This document shows, one piece after another, positions 11,934 to 59,910 of a stretch of 64,000 bases of DNA. The stretch comes from Chrysomallon squamiferum (taxonomy: Eukaryota > Mollusca > Gastropoda > Neomphalida > Peltospiridae): contig CM022671.1 in assembly GCA_012295275.1 (NCBI GenBank), positions 1,450,832 through 1,514,831 of the forward strand, given 5' to 3'. Within the stretch, counting starts at the first letter, position 1, and every line of letters begins with the position of its first letter. Under the pieces are notes generated by a model that saw only the letters and a program-made list of their open reading frames with translations, did not search any database and was not told where the DNA came from. The translations under genes and the position numbers were made by a program.

Positions 11934-24519
<12,586 letters not shown>

Positions 24520-27894: not shown

Positions 27895-27990
27895 TCAGGC
27901 TGCAATGGCTGCCTCAAAAGACTGGCATTTCTGGTTTTCACCGACACAAGTCACTGGAATCAGTGGATGTGTGGTCGTCATCAGGTAGTT
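27895..27990 (-). CDS. Gelsolin gene, probable last exon (end of G3)
   Basis: After the acceptor GAATTCTTTCAG, one frame reads [15 protein letters not shown]..., then [14 protein letters not shown] and TGA (27897-27895). This looks like the closing helix and strand of a gelsolin repeat (..YL....P..PVT...EG.....F). The alternative frame, entered if exon 9 is extended to 29079, reads [17 protein letters not shown] and stops at 27938. I prefer the first frame. Confidence 0.45.
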   Translation of the reverse strand, partial: NYLMTTTHPLIPVTCVGENQKCQSFEAAIAA

Positions 27991-29356
27991 CTGAAAGAAT
28001 TCAGAAAGACATCAGTAATAACATGGACTGCTGGTGACAAGAATCTCACATTTTAATTACTCATGTGAAAACATGGAGACTATACGTTTTATACGAGTTT
28101 TAAAAACAACCTTGTTTTGAAATAAATTAACTCAAGTCTGATAAAATTGAGGATACTGCTATATGTGTGTGTGTGTTATTACTTTAATATTTATGAATTT
28201 TTATTAAACACATGATGAAGATGAAACGTACATCCTCTCAAGCCTTTTGTTTACTGTCATATTTTTACATTTGAGAAATAAACTTAAAAATGTACAAAAA
28301 ATAATATTCGTTTTTTTTGTGGGGAAGGTATAAATCAAGTGTATGCTTTTTAACATTCCAATCCAGACAAACAGACCAGTTTTAGAACCATCCAGGACAA
28401 AAACAGTTTTAGTTTTTACACGTCCTGAAAACAGATCCTGTTTTTGAGAAATGTATTCTTATTAAAACATCTAACAGATCTACAGACAGGTATTCAGAAC
28501 AAATACATCCTCAAACAACAGCATGTTGATGTAGAACTCATTCTAAAAAACAATTTCATACATATAGAATTTCTGAAGAAAAATGAATCAAGAAATTTTG
28601 TTTTTTTTTTTGTTTTTTAATTATTTTTTTCCCCTGAAACAATAAATTAAAAGGTATCATAATTCGGTATTAGTAGAATTTTGGATTCTATTAGAAAAGT
28701 TCGAAACTTTTCTTATAAAAAAGATTTTAAGTTAAGAAAACTAATAGCCTTCAAAGCAGTCCACCCATAGCTCTCATGCATGGATGACCAATCCAGTCTG
28801 GTGACCAAGAGACTAAGCACATCTTCAGCAGAAATCATTCAGTAATTACTTTTTCAATTAACGCCATTGGATGGGGGAAGGTATCATAGTCTGGTAATGA
28901 GTAGAATTTTGATTCTATTAGAAAAGTTCGAAACTTTAGAGTATAAAATACAAAAATAATTATATTTAAAAAAATATGTATATACAATATCAAACAACTT
29001 CGTATCAATGAAATTAAATATTTTAATTATTTTAAATTGTAAATTAATCAAGTATTATTATTATTAAACGTGTATTACGAATCTCAAAGTTCCATACAGA
29101 AGAGTCTACATCATCTTCATCCAACACCTCAGTACTGGCTTTCCCTCTCTCAGACTCCAGCTGCTGACAAAACTGTGCAGCCTGCAAGGAACAAGTGACA
29201 CACAGTGATCACAAAGACATCATATTGTTACAGTGACATGTTAGAATGGTTTAGTGTTTGTTGTTTCAGGCCCCTGCTTCTATTTTCAAAACCCTTTGCA
29301 TGGTTCCCCTTGCTTGAAGACACTATGCTTTGTATGTAATGTATGTAATGTATGTA

Positions 29357-29400
<44 letters not shown>

Positions 29401-32400
29401 CAACTGCTTTCTCAGCTATGCAGTTTCAAATTTGTAGCATCATAAAACTGGTTATATATGGTCTAGCAGATATTAATCACATCTATCTAAAAAAAATATA
29501 GCTACACTTCATAGAGAGTTAAAAATCATACAGATGAATCTGATGAAAGCTGCTGTTATACAAAACATTTTTCTAGTGAGCAGTAAAGAAATTGTGACAC
29601 AGAGCTTCTTGTAATAAACAACAGTGCAGGGTTGTGAACGAAGGGAGATAACTGGTCAAAATAATCAACTAAACTCAAAAGTATGTGTAGATATGTGTAC
29701 ATAACATGGCAAGTTGATGTAAAATATTTATATATTTGACATTTACTAATTATCAGTTTTTTTGAAGTCAGCTGTTTAAAGTCAACCATTTCAGTTTCAG
29801 TTTTTTAACAGTTGTGCTACATTTATTAAATAAAATAAAACATTTTAGAAGAAATCTTTAACATTCACTTTGGTTTATTACAGTTTATTATTTTTTTTAC
29901 CTTAAATTTTTCATCTTTGTTAGCATTTTTCCCATTGAACTGGTAGATTTCCAGTCCCAAGTCCAGAATGAACACATCGTCTGAGTTCAGTGACGACTTA
30001 CTCAGCGACACCTGCAAAACATCAAACTACAATTAGTGGAAACTTCATACACACTATTTCACAAGTTCAAAATGTTGTCATCACATCTGTATTTCACTGT
30101 AAATTCATGCATGCTGTATGACATCTACATAATCGTTCAAATGTGAGGTGTTGAAAGTGTTGAGTAACAAACCTCTTTAACGACGATGCTTTTCCTGGTT
30201 CCTGAGAAGTGAAGCAGTCGTGGTTTGTACTTCTCCGGCTCCACATGACGGAAGCCAGAATCAGCTCCTCCTTTTAGCAGCCTGGAAATGAAGAAACAGA
30301 GAAAATAATAAAACAGAACAGCATCAGGAACAGGTATTTGTAAAATAACAAATGTACCAGCATAAACACCAGTAACAACAGAGTCAACAGCAACAATAAC
30401 AAAAACTATAGCATCAGTTGTCTTTAGACAGGCAAAACTTTCTGAAGTACTGAAAATAGATCTAAAGTCTAAAGCATTTACAGTCTGATGTTAATATTTA
30501 AACAGTGTATATTTCTTACAATACTGAATTACATGTGTTTCAGTATTTTTCAAATAGAGTAGTTAAGAGTAAAACCAGTTTCACCTGATGGTTTTGAAGT
30601 AACTGAGAGTAACAGTGGTTTCACCTGATGGTTTTGAAGTAACAGTAAAAGCAGTTTCACCTGATGGTTTTGAAGTAACATTAAAAGCGGTTTCACCTGA
30701 TGGTTTTGAAGTAACTGAGAGTAAAAGCGGTTTCACCTGATGGTTTTGAAGTAACAGTAAAAGTGGTTTCACCTGATGGTTTTGAAGTAACATTAAAAGT
30801 GGTTTCACCTGATGGTTTTGAAGTAACATTAAAAGCGGTTTCACCTGATGGTTTTGAAGTAACAGTAAAAGCGGTTTCACCTGATGGTTTTGAAGTAACT
30901 GAGAGTAAAAGCGGTTTCACCTGATGGTTTTGAAGTAACTGAGAGTAAAAGCGGTTTCACCTGATGGTTTTGAAGTAACAGTAAAAGCGGTTTCACCTGA
31001 TGGTTTTGAAGTAACAGTAAAAGCGGTTTCACCTGATGGTTTTGAAGTAACAGAGTAAAAGTGGTTTCACCTGATGGTTTTGAAGTAACAGTAAAAGTGG
31101 TTTCACCTGATGGTTTTGAAGTAACAGTAAAAGCGGTTTCACCTGATGGTTTTGAAGTAACAGTAAAAGTGGTTTCACCTGATGGTTTTGAAGTAACAGT
31201 AAAAGCGGTTTCACCTGATGGTTTTGAAGTAACAGTAAAAGCGGTTTCACCTGATGGTTTTGAAGTAACTGAGTAAAAGCGGTTTCACCTGATGGTTTTG
31301 AAGTAACAGTAAAAGTGGTTTCACCTGATGGTTTTGAAGTAACAGAGTAAAAGTGGTTTCACCTGATGGTTTTGAAGTAACAGTAAAAGTGGTTTCACCT
31401 GATGGTTTTGAAGTAACAGTAAAAACGGTTTCACCTGATGGTTTTGAAGTAACAGTAAAAGCGGTTTCACCTGATGGTTTTGAAGTAACAGTAAAAGCGG
31501 TTTCACCTGATGGTTTTGAAGTAACAGTAAAAGCAGTTTCACCTGATGGTTTTGAAGTAACTGAGAGTAAAGTGGTTTCACCTGATGGTTTTGAAGTAAC
31601 AGTAAAAGCGGTTTCACCTGATGGTTTTGAAGTAACTGAGGAAGAGCTGTGACTCGTGACCCTGCACTTCGCGGTGCTGCACTGGGAGGTCGTCGAGCAG
31701 CGTGTCCAGCTCCACAGTCTTGTACGCAGCGGTTCCATACTCGTCCTTGACAAACAAACCAAACAGTGAACACTGAGACATGAACAATGACAGAAAAACA
31801 GTGATAACAGTGAAAGAGCTATTTGATATTTGATTTAATTATGAAAGACTGGAATGTAAAATAATCATCCCGAGTTATCAAGTAACTGGAACATTTTTGT
31901 TAATTCATAGTGTCATAGCTAACATTAAAACATTATATATATAGATATCTATGTACATGTGTGTGTTAAGTAAGATAATGCACAGTGCCTGTGTGCTGTA
32001 TTTTCCAATCCAGAAGTGCACATCATACATCAGCTTGTCTTCCTCTTTGTAAGTCTGCAAAGAAAGTGGTATGAAATACACCTACCACAAAATATCTCAA
32101 ACCCAAAACTGTATCATAATTCTAAAACATTACACAGTGTAAACAATATATTTGTTTTGTTTAATAATGTTCCTCTTAATATTCTGTTAGTATGCTCTGC
32201 AATGTATAAATCACGACTAATATTTAACATTTCAGAAGCATTTTAATGAAGAAGCATTATAATTAAAACTAACAATCTGATAGGTAAACATTAAAATGTT
32301 ATAAACAGTTATCTCCCCTGAAAGATTTTTATGCCAACATGATTATCAATCTCATCACCATAAACAAACTTACATTAAGAATTATGTAAGAATCTCCCTC

Positions 32401-33530
32401 AAAGAACTTGCCATAATCTTCTTTTGGCCAATGCTTCACTTTAAATTTCTGCCAATGAAAATAAAACTATTTTATTTTACTGCTTTATCTTTAGGCAGTA
32501 TTACATTTAAAACAAGTTTCAATACAACTCAACTATAATTATATGCAAATGTAAATTCAAAATATACCCATTTCCCTTCATAATTATCCAATATTAAATT
32601 AATTACAGATGTAATACATACTGAAAACCATATTTTAATGTTTATCTTCAACAAAATAAACTAACATTTACTTTTTCTGTCTCACTATAGATCCATACTG
32701 TCATTCCACACCCTCAAGTTCAGTTAATCAAAATATATAATTTATTATTTATTATAAAACTGACCTCAATTCTCCAGATTTGCAGACCAACTTCTTTTCC
32801 TGCCCCTTTCCAAGCTGGTTCTGTCTCTGCAGATTCCTCTGAAATAGGAATAACAATAATACTGGCAGTTACATTATTAACTATTATTAACAATTTTGCT
32901 GTCACTAAAGTGTAATAATAAAACACTAAGTTTACAAGAAAATTAGTAGTAATAATAGTAGTGAGGGAAGTGACTGTAGTAGTAGTAGTAGTAGTGTAGT
33001 AGTAGTAGTGGTGGTAGTGGTGGTGGTGGTGGTAGTGGTGGTAGTGGTTGTGGGGGTGGTAATTGTAGTGGTATTTTTGCAAGTAAGACTTATTAATTAG
33101 CTTACTAATGGAAGCAGTTATGTGGTAACAGTAATAATTGTTTTAATTTAAGCATATCCATTAAAATGAAAATAAACTAAACTGTAAAGTAAAATTGTTT
33201 TAAAAGTTTTAGTTGGACTTGATTATCTACAACAATTCTGTTGATAAAGCACCTTAAGAAGCTGAATGTTTCAAGTGATCTGCTTACACAGAATATTTAC
33301 TTTAGCTTTGTTATCACCTGGATACAGATAAGCTATCATTTATACAAGGAGACACACTGAACGTGTTTAACAGAGACAAAAAGTAAAATACTAATACCAA
33401 CAGCAACACTAGCAGCAGCAACATAAATATTTCTATTTCAACTGTTTATGATTACCACTGAGTAACTCAATCAGTTTATTGTTGCTTTATTACTACTTTA
33501 TTTTTGTTCATATTATTTATTTATTTTTTC

Positions 33531-33578
<48 letters not shown>

Positions 33579-33722
33579 TTATTTATTTATTTATTTATTT
33601 ATTTTGTTGTTGTTGTTGTTAAAATAAGATTTACTTTTCACAGTTTTCTCTGTGTCAGATCCAAACAGAGCCAGGTTGGAGTCTTTCCAGTTGTACTTCT
33701 TTGGTTTAACCAGTCCTGACAT
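27895..33722 (-). CDS. Gelsolin/severin-family actin-binding protein (gene span)
   Basis: Clean coding segments, 5' to 3' on the minus strand, are 33722-33635, 32838-32765, 32448-32374, 32054-31989, 31745-31618, 30281-30173, 30011-29901 and 29181-29098. They encode about 245 residues. There is a short leader ([20 protein letters not shown]). Gelsolin repeat G1 follows: [18 protein letters not shown] at 37-54, [10 protein letters not shown] at 69-78, DVHFWIGK, and the helix ending [10 protein letters not shown] at 144. G2 then has [10 protein letters not shown] at 148-157, [17 protein letters not shown], and [20 protein letters not shown]. Such proteins sever or cap actin filaments under Ca2+/PIP2 control. 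Third-domain pieces lie at 28437-28357, 28269-28228 and 27990-27895. Assembled length would be about 330, near the 360-370 aa of three-repeat severins but short at the start of G3. The 3' exon joins are uncertain. Confidence 0.85.
28228..28269 (-). CDS. Gelsolin gene, possible G3 exon piece
   Basis: The frame reads [13 protein letters not shown] and meets a phase-0 donor TAC|GTTTCA, which joins directly to the last exon (..RMY-NYLMTT). It resembles the K-A-T-x-x-E-R helix start of gelsolin repeats. No AG acceptor precedes it at the expected place (..TTTCTCAAA), so the exon may be broken or mis-delimited. Confidence 0.25.
28357..28437 (-). CDS. Gelsolin gene, G3 core exon
   Basis: After an AAAAACAG acceptor the frame gives DLFSGRV and then [20 protein letters not shown]. 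This is an unmistakable gelsolin-repeat core (..VFILD.....+FVWIG). The 3' boundary has no GT at the codon expected; the nearest is AT|GTTAAA two bases on, in a different phase. Confidence 0.5.
28507..28542 (-). CDS. Possible micro-exon at the G2 end
   Basis: Between TTTTTTAG and a GTATTT sequence lies a 36-nt frame reading [12 protein letters not shown], phase 0 on both sides. It could follow ...DEDDVDSS of exon 9, where gelsolins have '..SEFWKLL'. This is speculative. Confidence 0.2.
28651..28937 (-). repeat. Pair of ~60-bp direct repeats in the gelsolin 3' intron
   Basis: AAGGTATCATA..TCTGGTA/TTCGGTA..AGTAGAATTTTG.ATTC, ending TTAGAAAAGTTCGAAACTTT, occurs at 28651-28710 and again at 28879-28937. 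About 170 bp of unique DNA lies between. Confidence 0.75.
29098..29181 (-). CDS. Gelsolin gene coding exon 9 (end of G2)
   Basis: After CTTGCAG it encodes [14 protein letters not shown], then [15 protein letters not shown] end it at the phase-0 donor TCT|GTATGG. A phase-1 donor further on (ATTC|GTAATA at 29079) is the alternative. Confidence 0.75.
29339..29397. repeat. (TGTAATGTA)n-(GT)n microsatellite
   Basis: Three TATGTAATG units lead into about 20 GT units, within the intron between gelsolin exons 8 and 9. Confidence 0.9.
29901..30011 (-). CDS. Gelsolin gene coding exon 8 (G2 core)
   Basis: Encodes 37 codons including [20 protein letters not shown] and [11 protein letters not shown]. 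The acceptor is TTTTGCAG and the donor AAG|GTAAAA; both ends are phase 0. Confidence 0.92.
30173..30281 (-). CDS. Gelsolin gene coding exon 7 (G2 start)
   Basis: Encodes (R)[20 protein letters not shown] and [23 protein letters not shown] is the conserved G2 entry motif of gelsolin and villin, near the phosphoinositide/actin side-binding surface. The acceptor is TTTCCAG and the donor GAG|GTTTGT. Confidence 0.92.
30575..31640 (-). repeat. Minisatellite made of the exon 6/intron boundary: 29 tandem splice donors
   Basis: On the minus strand every unit carries TTACTTCAAAACCATCAG, identical to the last 18 nt of coding exon 6, followed by the donor GTGAAAC and a CGCTTTTACT tail. I count 29 copies; the first (31618 end) is the true exon border. 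The usual spacing is 36 bp, with 38-40 bp variants. Longer variants restore a CTCTCAG before TTACTTC, which is also the exon's own upstream sequence (CTCAG). Every copy carries TGA straight after the AGG that spans the donor. Both strands have long open frames (such as [12 protein letters not shown] repeats on the plus strand), but these are repeat translations. Confidence 0.95.
31618..31745 (-). CDS. Gelsolin gene coding exon 6 (end of G1)
   Basis: Encodes [20 protein letters not shown], then [13 protein letters not shown] and LFLSYFKTI, with AG of the next Arg. This is the long G1 helix and the family's 'HES..F.SYFK' signature. The acceptor is TTTGTCAAG. Its donor CAG|GTGAAA is the first of the 29-fold array. 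Confidence 0.93.
31989..32054 (-). CDS. Gelsolin gene coding exon 5
   Basis: Encodes [22 protein letters not shown] (22 codons) after TTTGCAG. The homology-supported end is ACACAG|GCACTG, a GC rather than GT donor, because the next exon begins DEYGTAA exactly as the family requires. Confidence 0.88.
32374..32448 (-). CDS. Gelsolin gene coding exon 4
   Basis: Encodes [20 protein letters not shown] and YIILN, the second and third strands of G1. The acceptor is TTGGCAG and the donor AAT|GTAAGT; both ends are phase 0. Confidence 0.92.
32765..32838 (-). CDS. Gelsolin gene coding exon 3
   Basis: Encodes (K)[19 protein letters not shown] and IWRIE, the start of the G1 fold. The acceptor is CTATTTCAG and the donor GAG|GTCAGT. 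Confidence 0.92.
32940..33075. repeat. (TAG)n/(TGG)n trinucleotide repeat
   Basis: AGTAGTAGT passes into GTGGTGGTAGTGG in the intron between gelsolin exons 2 and 3. Tyr/His/Thr-rich minus-strand frames arise from it. Confidence 0.9.
33536..33604. repeat. (AT)n-(TTTA)n microsatellite
   Basis: About 18 AT units and then 8 TTTA units lie directly downstream (minus sense) of the gelsolin exon 2 donor. Confidence 0.9.
33635..33722 (-). CDS. Gelsolin gene coding exon 2 (start codon)
   Basis: After the acceptor TTATTTCCAG (exon starts 33725), ATG at 33722-33720 opens [20 protein letters not shown], then GSDTEKTVK and the phase-1 donor A|GTAAAT. This hydrophilic leader before the first repeat is common in invertebrate gelsolin-like proteins. 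The ATG is the first in the exon. Confidence 0.88.
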
Positions 33723-58394: not shown

Positions 58395-59910
58395 TATATT
58401 TGAATGCAGTGTGTGACTGTCTGGTCTCTGTCTGTGTACACCTGTGTGACTGTCTGGTCTCTGTCTGTGTACACCTGTGTGACTGTCTGGTATCTCTGCC
58501 TGTGTACACCTGTGTGTGACTGTCTGGTTTCTGTGTACACCTGTGTGTGACTGTCTTGTCTCTGTCTGTGTACACCTGTATGACTGTCTGGTATCTGCCT
58601 GTGTACACCTGTGTGACTGTCTTGTCTCTGTCTGTGTACACCTGTGTGTGACTGTCTTGTCTCTGTCTGTGTACACCTGTGTGACTGTCTGGTATCTGCC
58701 TGTGTACACCTGTGTGACTGTCTGTGTACACCTGTGTGTGACTGTCTGGTTTCTGTGTACACCTGTGTGTGACTGTCTGTGTACACCTGTGTGTGACTGT
58801 CTGGTCTCTGTCTGTGTACACCTGTGTGTGACTGTCTGGTTTCTGTGTACACCTGTGTGTGACTGTCTGTGTACACCTGTGTGTGACTGTCTGGTCTCTG
58901 TCTGTGTACACCTGTGTGTGACTGTCTGGTATCTGTGTACACCTGTGTGACTTTCTGGTCTCTGTCTGTGTACACCTGTGTGTGACTGTCTTGTCTCTAT
59001 GTACACCTGTGTGACTGTCTGGTCTCTGTGTACACCTGTGTGTGACTGTCTGGTATCTGTCTGTGTACACCTGTGTGACTGTCTGGTATCTGTCTGTGTA
59101 CACCTGTGTGTGACTGTCTGGTCTCTGTCTGTGTACACCTGTGTGTGACTGTCTGGTATATGTCTGTGTACACCTGTGTGTGACTGTCTGGTCTCTGTCT
59201 GTGTACACCTGTGTGTGACTGTCTGGTATCTGTCTGTGTACACCTGTGTGTGACTGTCTGGTCTCTGTGTACACCTGTGTGACTGTCTGGTCTCTGTGTA
59301 CACCTGTGTGTCTGTCTGGTATCTGTCTGTGTACACCTGTGTGTGACTGTCTGGTCTCTGTGTACACCTGTGTGTGACTGTCTGGTATCTGTCTGTGTAC
59401 ACCTGTGTGACTGTCTTGTCTCTGTGTACACCTGTGTGTGACTGTCTGGTATCTGTCTGTGTACACCTGTGTGACTGTCTGCTCTCTGTGTACACCTGTG
59501 TGTGACTGTCTGGTATCTCTGTGTACACCTGTGTGTGACTGTCTGGTATCTGTCTGTGTACACCTGTGTGACTGTCTGGTCTCTGTGTACACCTGTGTGT
59601 GACTGTCTTGTCTCTATCTGTGTACACCTGTGTGTGACTGTCTGGTATCTGTCTGTGTACACCTGTGTGACTGTCTGGTCTCTGTCTGTGTACACCTGTG
59701 TGACTGTCTGGTCTCTGTCTGTGTACACCTGTGTGTGACTGTCTGGTCTCTGTCTGTGTACTGTGACTGTCTGGTCTCTGTGTGTGTACACCTGTGTGAC
59801 TGTCTGGTATCTGTGTGTGTACACCTGTGTGTGACTGTCTGGTCTCTGTCTGTGTACACCTGAGTGACTGTCTGGTCTCTGTCTGTGTACACCTGTGTGT
59901 GACTGGTGAA
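58395..59910. repeat. 1.5-kb satellite, about 45 monomers
   Basis: Monomers are built from GTGTACACCTGTGTGACTGT, CTGGTCTCTGTCT and short TG insertions, with lengths of roughly 24 to 37 bp. Insertions of 2 or 8 bp (TG, CTGTCTGT) alternate, so reading frames shift along the array. On the minus strand frames stay open for up to 529 codons (T-E-T-R-Q-S-H-T-G-V-H-R type), simply because the monomer lacks stops. Confidence 0.95.

Follow-up and report, generated by a model that had tools for sequence, protein, structure and literature searches.

A gelsolin-like gene on the minus strand of the 64,000 nucleotides (nt) of Chrysomallon squamiferum (Mollusca, Gastropoda) DNA analysed here (the window; contig CM022671.1 of assembly GCA_012295275.1, positions 1,450,832 to 1,514,831, forward strand) carries 29 tandem copies of the end of its fifth coding exon together with the 5' splice site (donor) that follows it. 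The array is probably a neutral minisatellite of the type termed mirages in amphioxus, in which copy 1 is the donor that is used and copies 2-29 leave with the intron.

The 14-mer CCATCAGGTGAAAC (CCATCAG/GTGAAAC, with the slash marking the splice junction) has 29 exact matches, all on the minus strand between positions 30578 and 31624 of the window, as compared to a mean of 0.30 and a maximum of three in 100 shuffles in which up to two mismatches were permitted. Successive copies are spaced 36-40 bp apart, as a first-pass annotation of this DNA had described without naming the strand, and Tandem Repeats Finder (TRF) delimits the array at 30564-31636 with a period of 36 and at 30564-31640 with a period of 292. 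Unit length is 36 nt in 20 of the 28 full units, 38 nt in three, 39 nt in one and 40 nt in four, with three of the latter identical and one a variant. The 28 units fall into 11 sequence types, with the first full unit belonging to the commonest type and the last to a type represented once. The unit spans the authentic exon-intron boundary, comprising 23 nt of coding exon 5 and 17 nt of intron 5, and the AG/GT splice signal is found in every copy (CAG/GTGAAA, 29/29). The annotation had also correctly recognised that the array starts at a real exon border and extends about 1 kb into the intron: copy 1 is the end of exon 5, and the first 1033 nt of intron 5, until just before the donor of the last copy, consist of array sequence. 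The repetition of the exon end holds, but its length, given as 18 nt, amounts to 19 nt in 28/28 full units, extending to 23 nt in the six that retain CTCAG. Similarly, the donors and exon-derived portions described as near-identical and near-perfect are conserved, and in fact perfectly so, with the 19 exon-derived nt and GTGAAAC invariant in 28/28 full units. An ordinary intronic minisatellite, situated wholly inside the intron, is ruled out, as 23 nt of the array lie in exon 5. No further copy of the exon-derived 23-mer, with up to five mismatches, occurs in the window outside the array, and no known RNA family was detected at gathering score within the window.

The 40-nt unit is composed of CTCAGTTACTTCAAAACCATCAG (exon) and GTGAAACCGCTTTTACT (intron), while the exon ahead of copy 1 reads ...CTCTTCCTCAG and the intron past the last copy reads GTGAAACTGGTTTTACTCTTAAC... 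The founding event may have been a tandem duplication of a 40-bp segment, with 23 nt from the end of exon 5 and 17 nt from the start of intron 5, which placed exon position -23 directly after intron position +17 across a 2-bp CT homology. This location of the seam is suggested by the units of 40 nt together with the sequence in which the intron continues past the last copy. Growth to 29 copies would have occurred via unequal exchange, slippage or conversion, with the majority of units later shortened to 36 nt by base loss at the seam, an order of events and mechanism that we infer from one sequence. Columns 20-21 of the unit, at the seam, are absent from 22 of the 28 full units and small indels occur at or near the seam, while substitutions are restricted to columns 8, 9, 10, 12 and 16. 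Columns 8-9 hold a CpG of which both decay products are present (CG 16/28, CA 10/28, TG 2/28). The five substituted columns sit within 9 of 36 (P 0.0066), and the three non-CpG columns alone give P 0.075, in a test whose columns were picked after looking at the data. With the higher value obtained once the two CpG-decay columns are removed, we make no claim that the 19 exon-derived nt are under selection in the intronic copies; the recent expansion or homogenisation proposed in the first-pass annotation fits the units, but the column clustering is weak. Tandem arrays are prone to assembly errors, and the BflGb6 mirage in the draft amphioxus genome was said by its authors to appear aberrantly assembled. 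It is nevertheless very unlikely that assembly produced this array or altered its copy number, as its 11 unit types follow each other in irregular order and no exact block repeat is present.

Eight spliced minus-strand exons of the host gene yield an open frame of 251 amino acids (Table 1). The exons were placed by tblastn with 120 homologues (pieces of at least 28 bits), a profile of 113 homologues and a check of the splice frame. A protein search gave 4517 matches at E<=0.001, the best 120 of which share 58-76% identity with the product, while the five top matches, which come from more than one phylum, are 71-76% identical to it. These homologues are gelsolin-like ('actin-modulator') proteins of molluscs, echinoderms, sponges and others, of approximately 360-370 amino acids. 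The product contains the Pfam domain Gelsolin (PF00626) and its structure matches are villin, gelsolin, fragmin and macrophage capping protein. These matches point to an invertebrate gelsolin-like (actin-modulator) gene, so that the earlier label 'gelsolin' stands for the family but not in the sense of the long vertebrate gelsolin. The exon numbered as coding exon 6 in the first-pass annotation is the fifth coding exon in our model, although a non-coding exon, if present, would alter this count. Its acceptor is TTGTCAAG/GACGAG. The profile covers positions 103-145 in exon 5 and 145-185 in exon 6, which identifies the authentic end of exon 5 as array copy 1, and the copy 1 junction is further supported by the 251-amino-acid open frame, which matches the homologues over both segments.

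All 29 donors have a score of 3.15, as compared to -0.45 for the next best GT in intron 5, on a scale that rests on metazoan frequencies. Among the seven placed GT donors of the gene (4.58, 3.15, 3.09, 1.19, 0.65, -1.49 and -6.87, the last uncertain) that of the array ranks second. Only donor 1 of the 29 keeps the frame into exon 6. With donors 2-29 (28/28) an in-frame TGA follows right after the natural junction, and the product stops past residue 144, at ...SYFKTIR. Solved gelsolin single-domain constructs align from query residue 36 or 37 to residue 154-161, and the 144-residue product is thus close to one gelsolin domain. Transcripts with such an early stop should be open to nonsense-mediated decay. 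A coding role of the array is unlikely, as the exon 5 frame meets a TGA where the first unit begins. Over stretches of the array three further frames are open (two minus, one plus), 36 being a multiple of three, but reading them would require a frame change from exon 5. Exon definition favours a short exon, and the spliceosome would by this means pick copy 1, the use of which is likely because exon 5 is then defined as a 128-nt exon, while copies 2-29 would be spliced out as intron. The array would be tolerated because it is located downstream of the used donor.

RNA structure was rejected as evidence for a masking of donors 2-29. In the folds the donor pairs with a downstream UUUUAC for which copy 1 has an identical partner, and three short folds show no structure signal relative to shuffles (z 0.18, -1.00 and 0.40), the 1101-nt fold having been made without a shuffle control. 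The function in length-variable splicing or U1 buffering that had been suggested for the array is likewise unsupported by these short folds. Each AG/GT could alternatively act as both acceptor and donor, with the array removed stepwise by recursive splicing that regenerates the same junction and so erases itself. CAG/GT is a form of ratchet site, every unit ends in CAG/GT, and unit-to-unit joining would leave the junction sequence unchanged. The steps would, however, be 36-40 nt, far short of the 161 nt of the shortest intron among the seven placed in the gene, and pyrimidines occupy 13/21 positions before the unit AG against 18/21 at the real exon 6 acceptor, although the unit tract is no weaker than the acceptors of exons 3 (12), 7 (13) and 9 (9). 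Removal of the array in this manner is considered highly improbable.

Several observations weigh against the use of copy 1 in a neutral mirage-type array. As the 29 donors are identical, site strength is unable to single out copy 1, and nothing in the site itself favours it. In human IFI6 two downstream repeat units are reported to serve as donors (PMC4526556). If donors 2, 3 and further copies were similarly used at some rate, output would be lowered by nonsense-mediated decay or a 144-residue one-domain-like fragment would be formed, with copy number tuning the effect. The equal donor scores, well separated from that of the next GT, and the stop after residue 144 shared by all 28 alternative donors are in keeping with such use, which is nonetheless unlikely in view of the preference of exon definition for the short exon. 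Amphioxus mirages are also said not to yield aberrant mRNA (PMC3087553, PMC3902484). It is more doubtful still that the array represents a heritable, perhaps somatically variable splicing rheostat, in which copy number sets the output of the actin regulator; each added copy would in that case be an extra identical donor whose use leads to transcript decay or a one-domain gelsolin fragment.

The third gelsolin domain is, furthermore, incomplete as read (27895-29181), with profile positions 249-291 and 324-333 not found; exons may be missing from the model, or the gene may be in decay. Decay is suggested by this incomplete domain and would possibly render the splicing argument moot. Growth of the array in a decaying paralogue under relaxed splicing selection, which is compatible with a mirage-type minisatellite, would also fit the GT donors of exons 8 and 9, which as placed are weak or lacking (for exon 9 none was found at the position tried), and the apparent GC donor at exon 4. 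The open frame through exons 1-8 and the 71-76% identity to the five best matches, drawn from more than one phylum, argue against decay and make this history rather unlikely. Finally, identical units adjoin in 4/27 cases, as compared to a shuffle mean of 3.71 (P 0.54), and neighbours are thus no more alike than shuffled units.

By analogy, the array appears to be a large example of an already known kind, as similar arrays have been published in amphioxus and a minisatellite with multiple splice donors in human IFI6 (6-16), the latter reportedly by Turri et al. in 1995. The novelty claimed in the first-pass annotation, on the ground that a splice site is no part of an ordinary minisatellite, is not supported, as splice sites are reported within both the amphioxus mirages and the human IFI6 array. 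What is notable here is the presence of 29 copies, the identity of all donors and the mollusc host. Mirages have been described in amphioxus Adh3, the globins BflGb6 and BflGb9, troponin C (TnC) and PGBD5 (PMC3087553, PMC3902484), the latter two hosts having been added by PMC3902484. Those of Adh3 show length and somatic instability, and the reported data suggest that regular splicing is undisturbed (PMC3087553). The exon-border architecture is the same, with both 5' and 3' borders possible in amphioxus. The array described here differs in its 29 copies, as opposed to six and three units in two BflGb6 haplotypes, in its unit of 36-40 bp, as opposed to 10-72 bp in Adh3 and 150-160 bp in BflGb6, and in its identical donors, AG/GT being reported in many but not all amphioxus copies. 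In IFI6 a minisatellite likewise supplies multiple donors for one exon, but use of the two downstream units is reported to yield three mRNAs (PMC4526556), whereas in the gelsolin-like gene any downstream donor gives an immediate stop. Intron gain by AGGT tandem duplication, reported for ATP2A1, fission yeast 24-bp repeats and the potato RdRp (PMC4974935), similarly involves duplication of a segment containing AG/GT; in C. squamiferum the duplication concerns an exon/intron border, and no coding sequence is gained from the units. Variable internal tandem repeats at exon-intron boundaries are also reported to alter the structure of human segmental-duplication genes (PMC2812944). These have on average four units of 30 bp and are tied to putative new introns, in contrast to the 29 copies here and a coding frame that is unchanged if copy 1 is used. 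No exon-border or splice-donor minisatellite in a mollusc was recognised in the portions of the openly licensed literature consulted, which is no proof of absence.

Table 1. Array, donor and exons of the gelsolin-like gene (positions in the window).
Feature	Position	Strand	Basis or remark
Coding exon 1, start ATG	33635..33722	-	tblastn, frame, profile
Coding exon 2	32765..32838	-	tblastn, frame, profile
Coding exon 3	32374..32448	-	tblastn, frame, profile
Coding exon 4	31989..32054	-	tblastn, frame, profile; apparent GC donor CAG/GCACTG at 31988-31989 (intron 4)
Coding exon 5, 128 nt	31618..31745	-	profile 103-145; last 23 nt are array copy 1
Authentic donor, copy 1, CAG/GTGAAA	31617..31618	-	exon ends at 31618, intron starts at 31617
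Mirage-type minisatellite, 29 copies of exon end and donor	30564..31640	-	units of 36-40 nt
Intron 5, 1336 nt	30282..31617	-	3' end ATTTCCAG
Coding exon 6	30173..30281	-	120 tblastn pieces of at least 28 bits; profile 145-185
Coding exon 7	29901..30011	-	tblastn, frame, profile
Coding exon 8, uncertain 3' limit	29079..29181	-	profile 218-248; donor as placed -6.87
Probable part of third gelsolin domain, uncertain limits	28357..28437	-	17 tblastn pieces of at least 28 bits; profile 292-323, i-E 0.0043; no GT donor at the position tried
Last coding exon, end ...FEAAIAA-stop	27895..27990	-	tblastn; profile 334-367

The window has a G+C content of 33.4%. An SLC22-like organic cation transporter gene is located at 11934-23837 on the plus strand; among the best 120 of its 279 matches at E 0.001 those named to organism are all from molluscs, with 33-43% identity, in a search that scored 7993 candidates with an imperfect query sequence (two flaws). 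A 26-bp minisatellite of 13.4 copies (23827-24174, plus strand) starts within the last 11 nt of the SLC22-like frame as read, counting the stop codon, and the stop-codon region of this gene is repeated in most of its units. Two of eight longer-period TRF arrays picked by hand overlap exons, namely this 26-bp array and that of the gelsolin-like gene. Other minisatellites include one with a 65-bp period and 26 copies between SLC22-like exons (12773-14458) and a long one with 35- and 64-bp periods (58410-59905). ARAGORN predicted a tRNA-Gln (TTG) at 28647-28719 on the plus strand, and a look-alike stretch of approximately 60 nt is found some 230 bp beyond it, so that the call may belong to a small repeat.

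The gelsolin-like gene of C. squamiferum provides a natural test of how the spliceosome chooses among 29 identical donors: as donor strength is constant, the choice can depend only on position, exon definition or the order of transcription. The array suggests that exon-border minisatellites, described in lancelets and a few human genes in the reports available, are present in a mollusc as well and can reach a large size, which has a bearing on the movement of intron borders and on the origin of introns by tandem duplication. Should the doubtful rheostat prove true, the copy number of the array would tune the output of an actin regulator.
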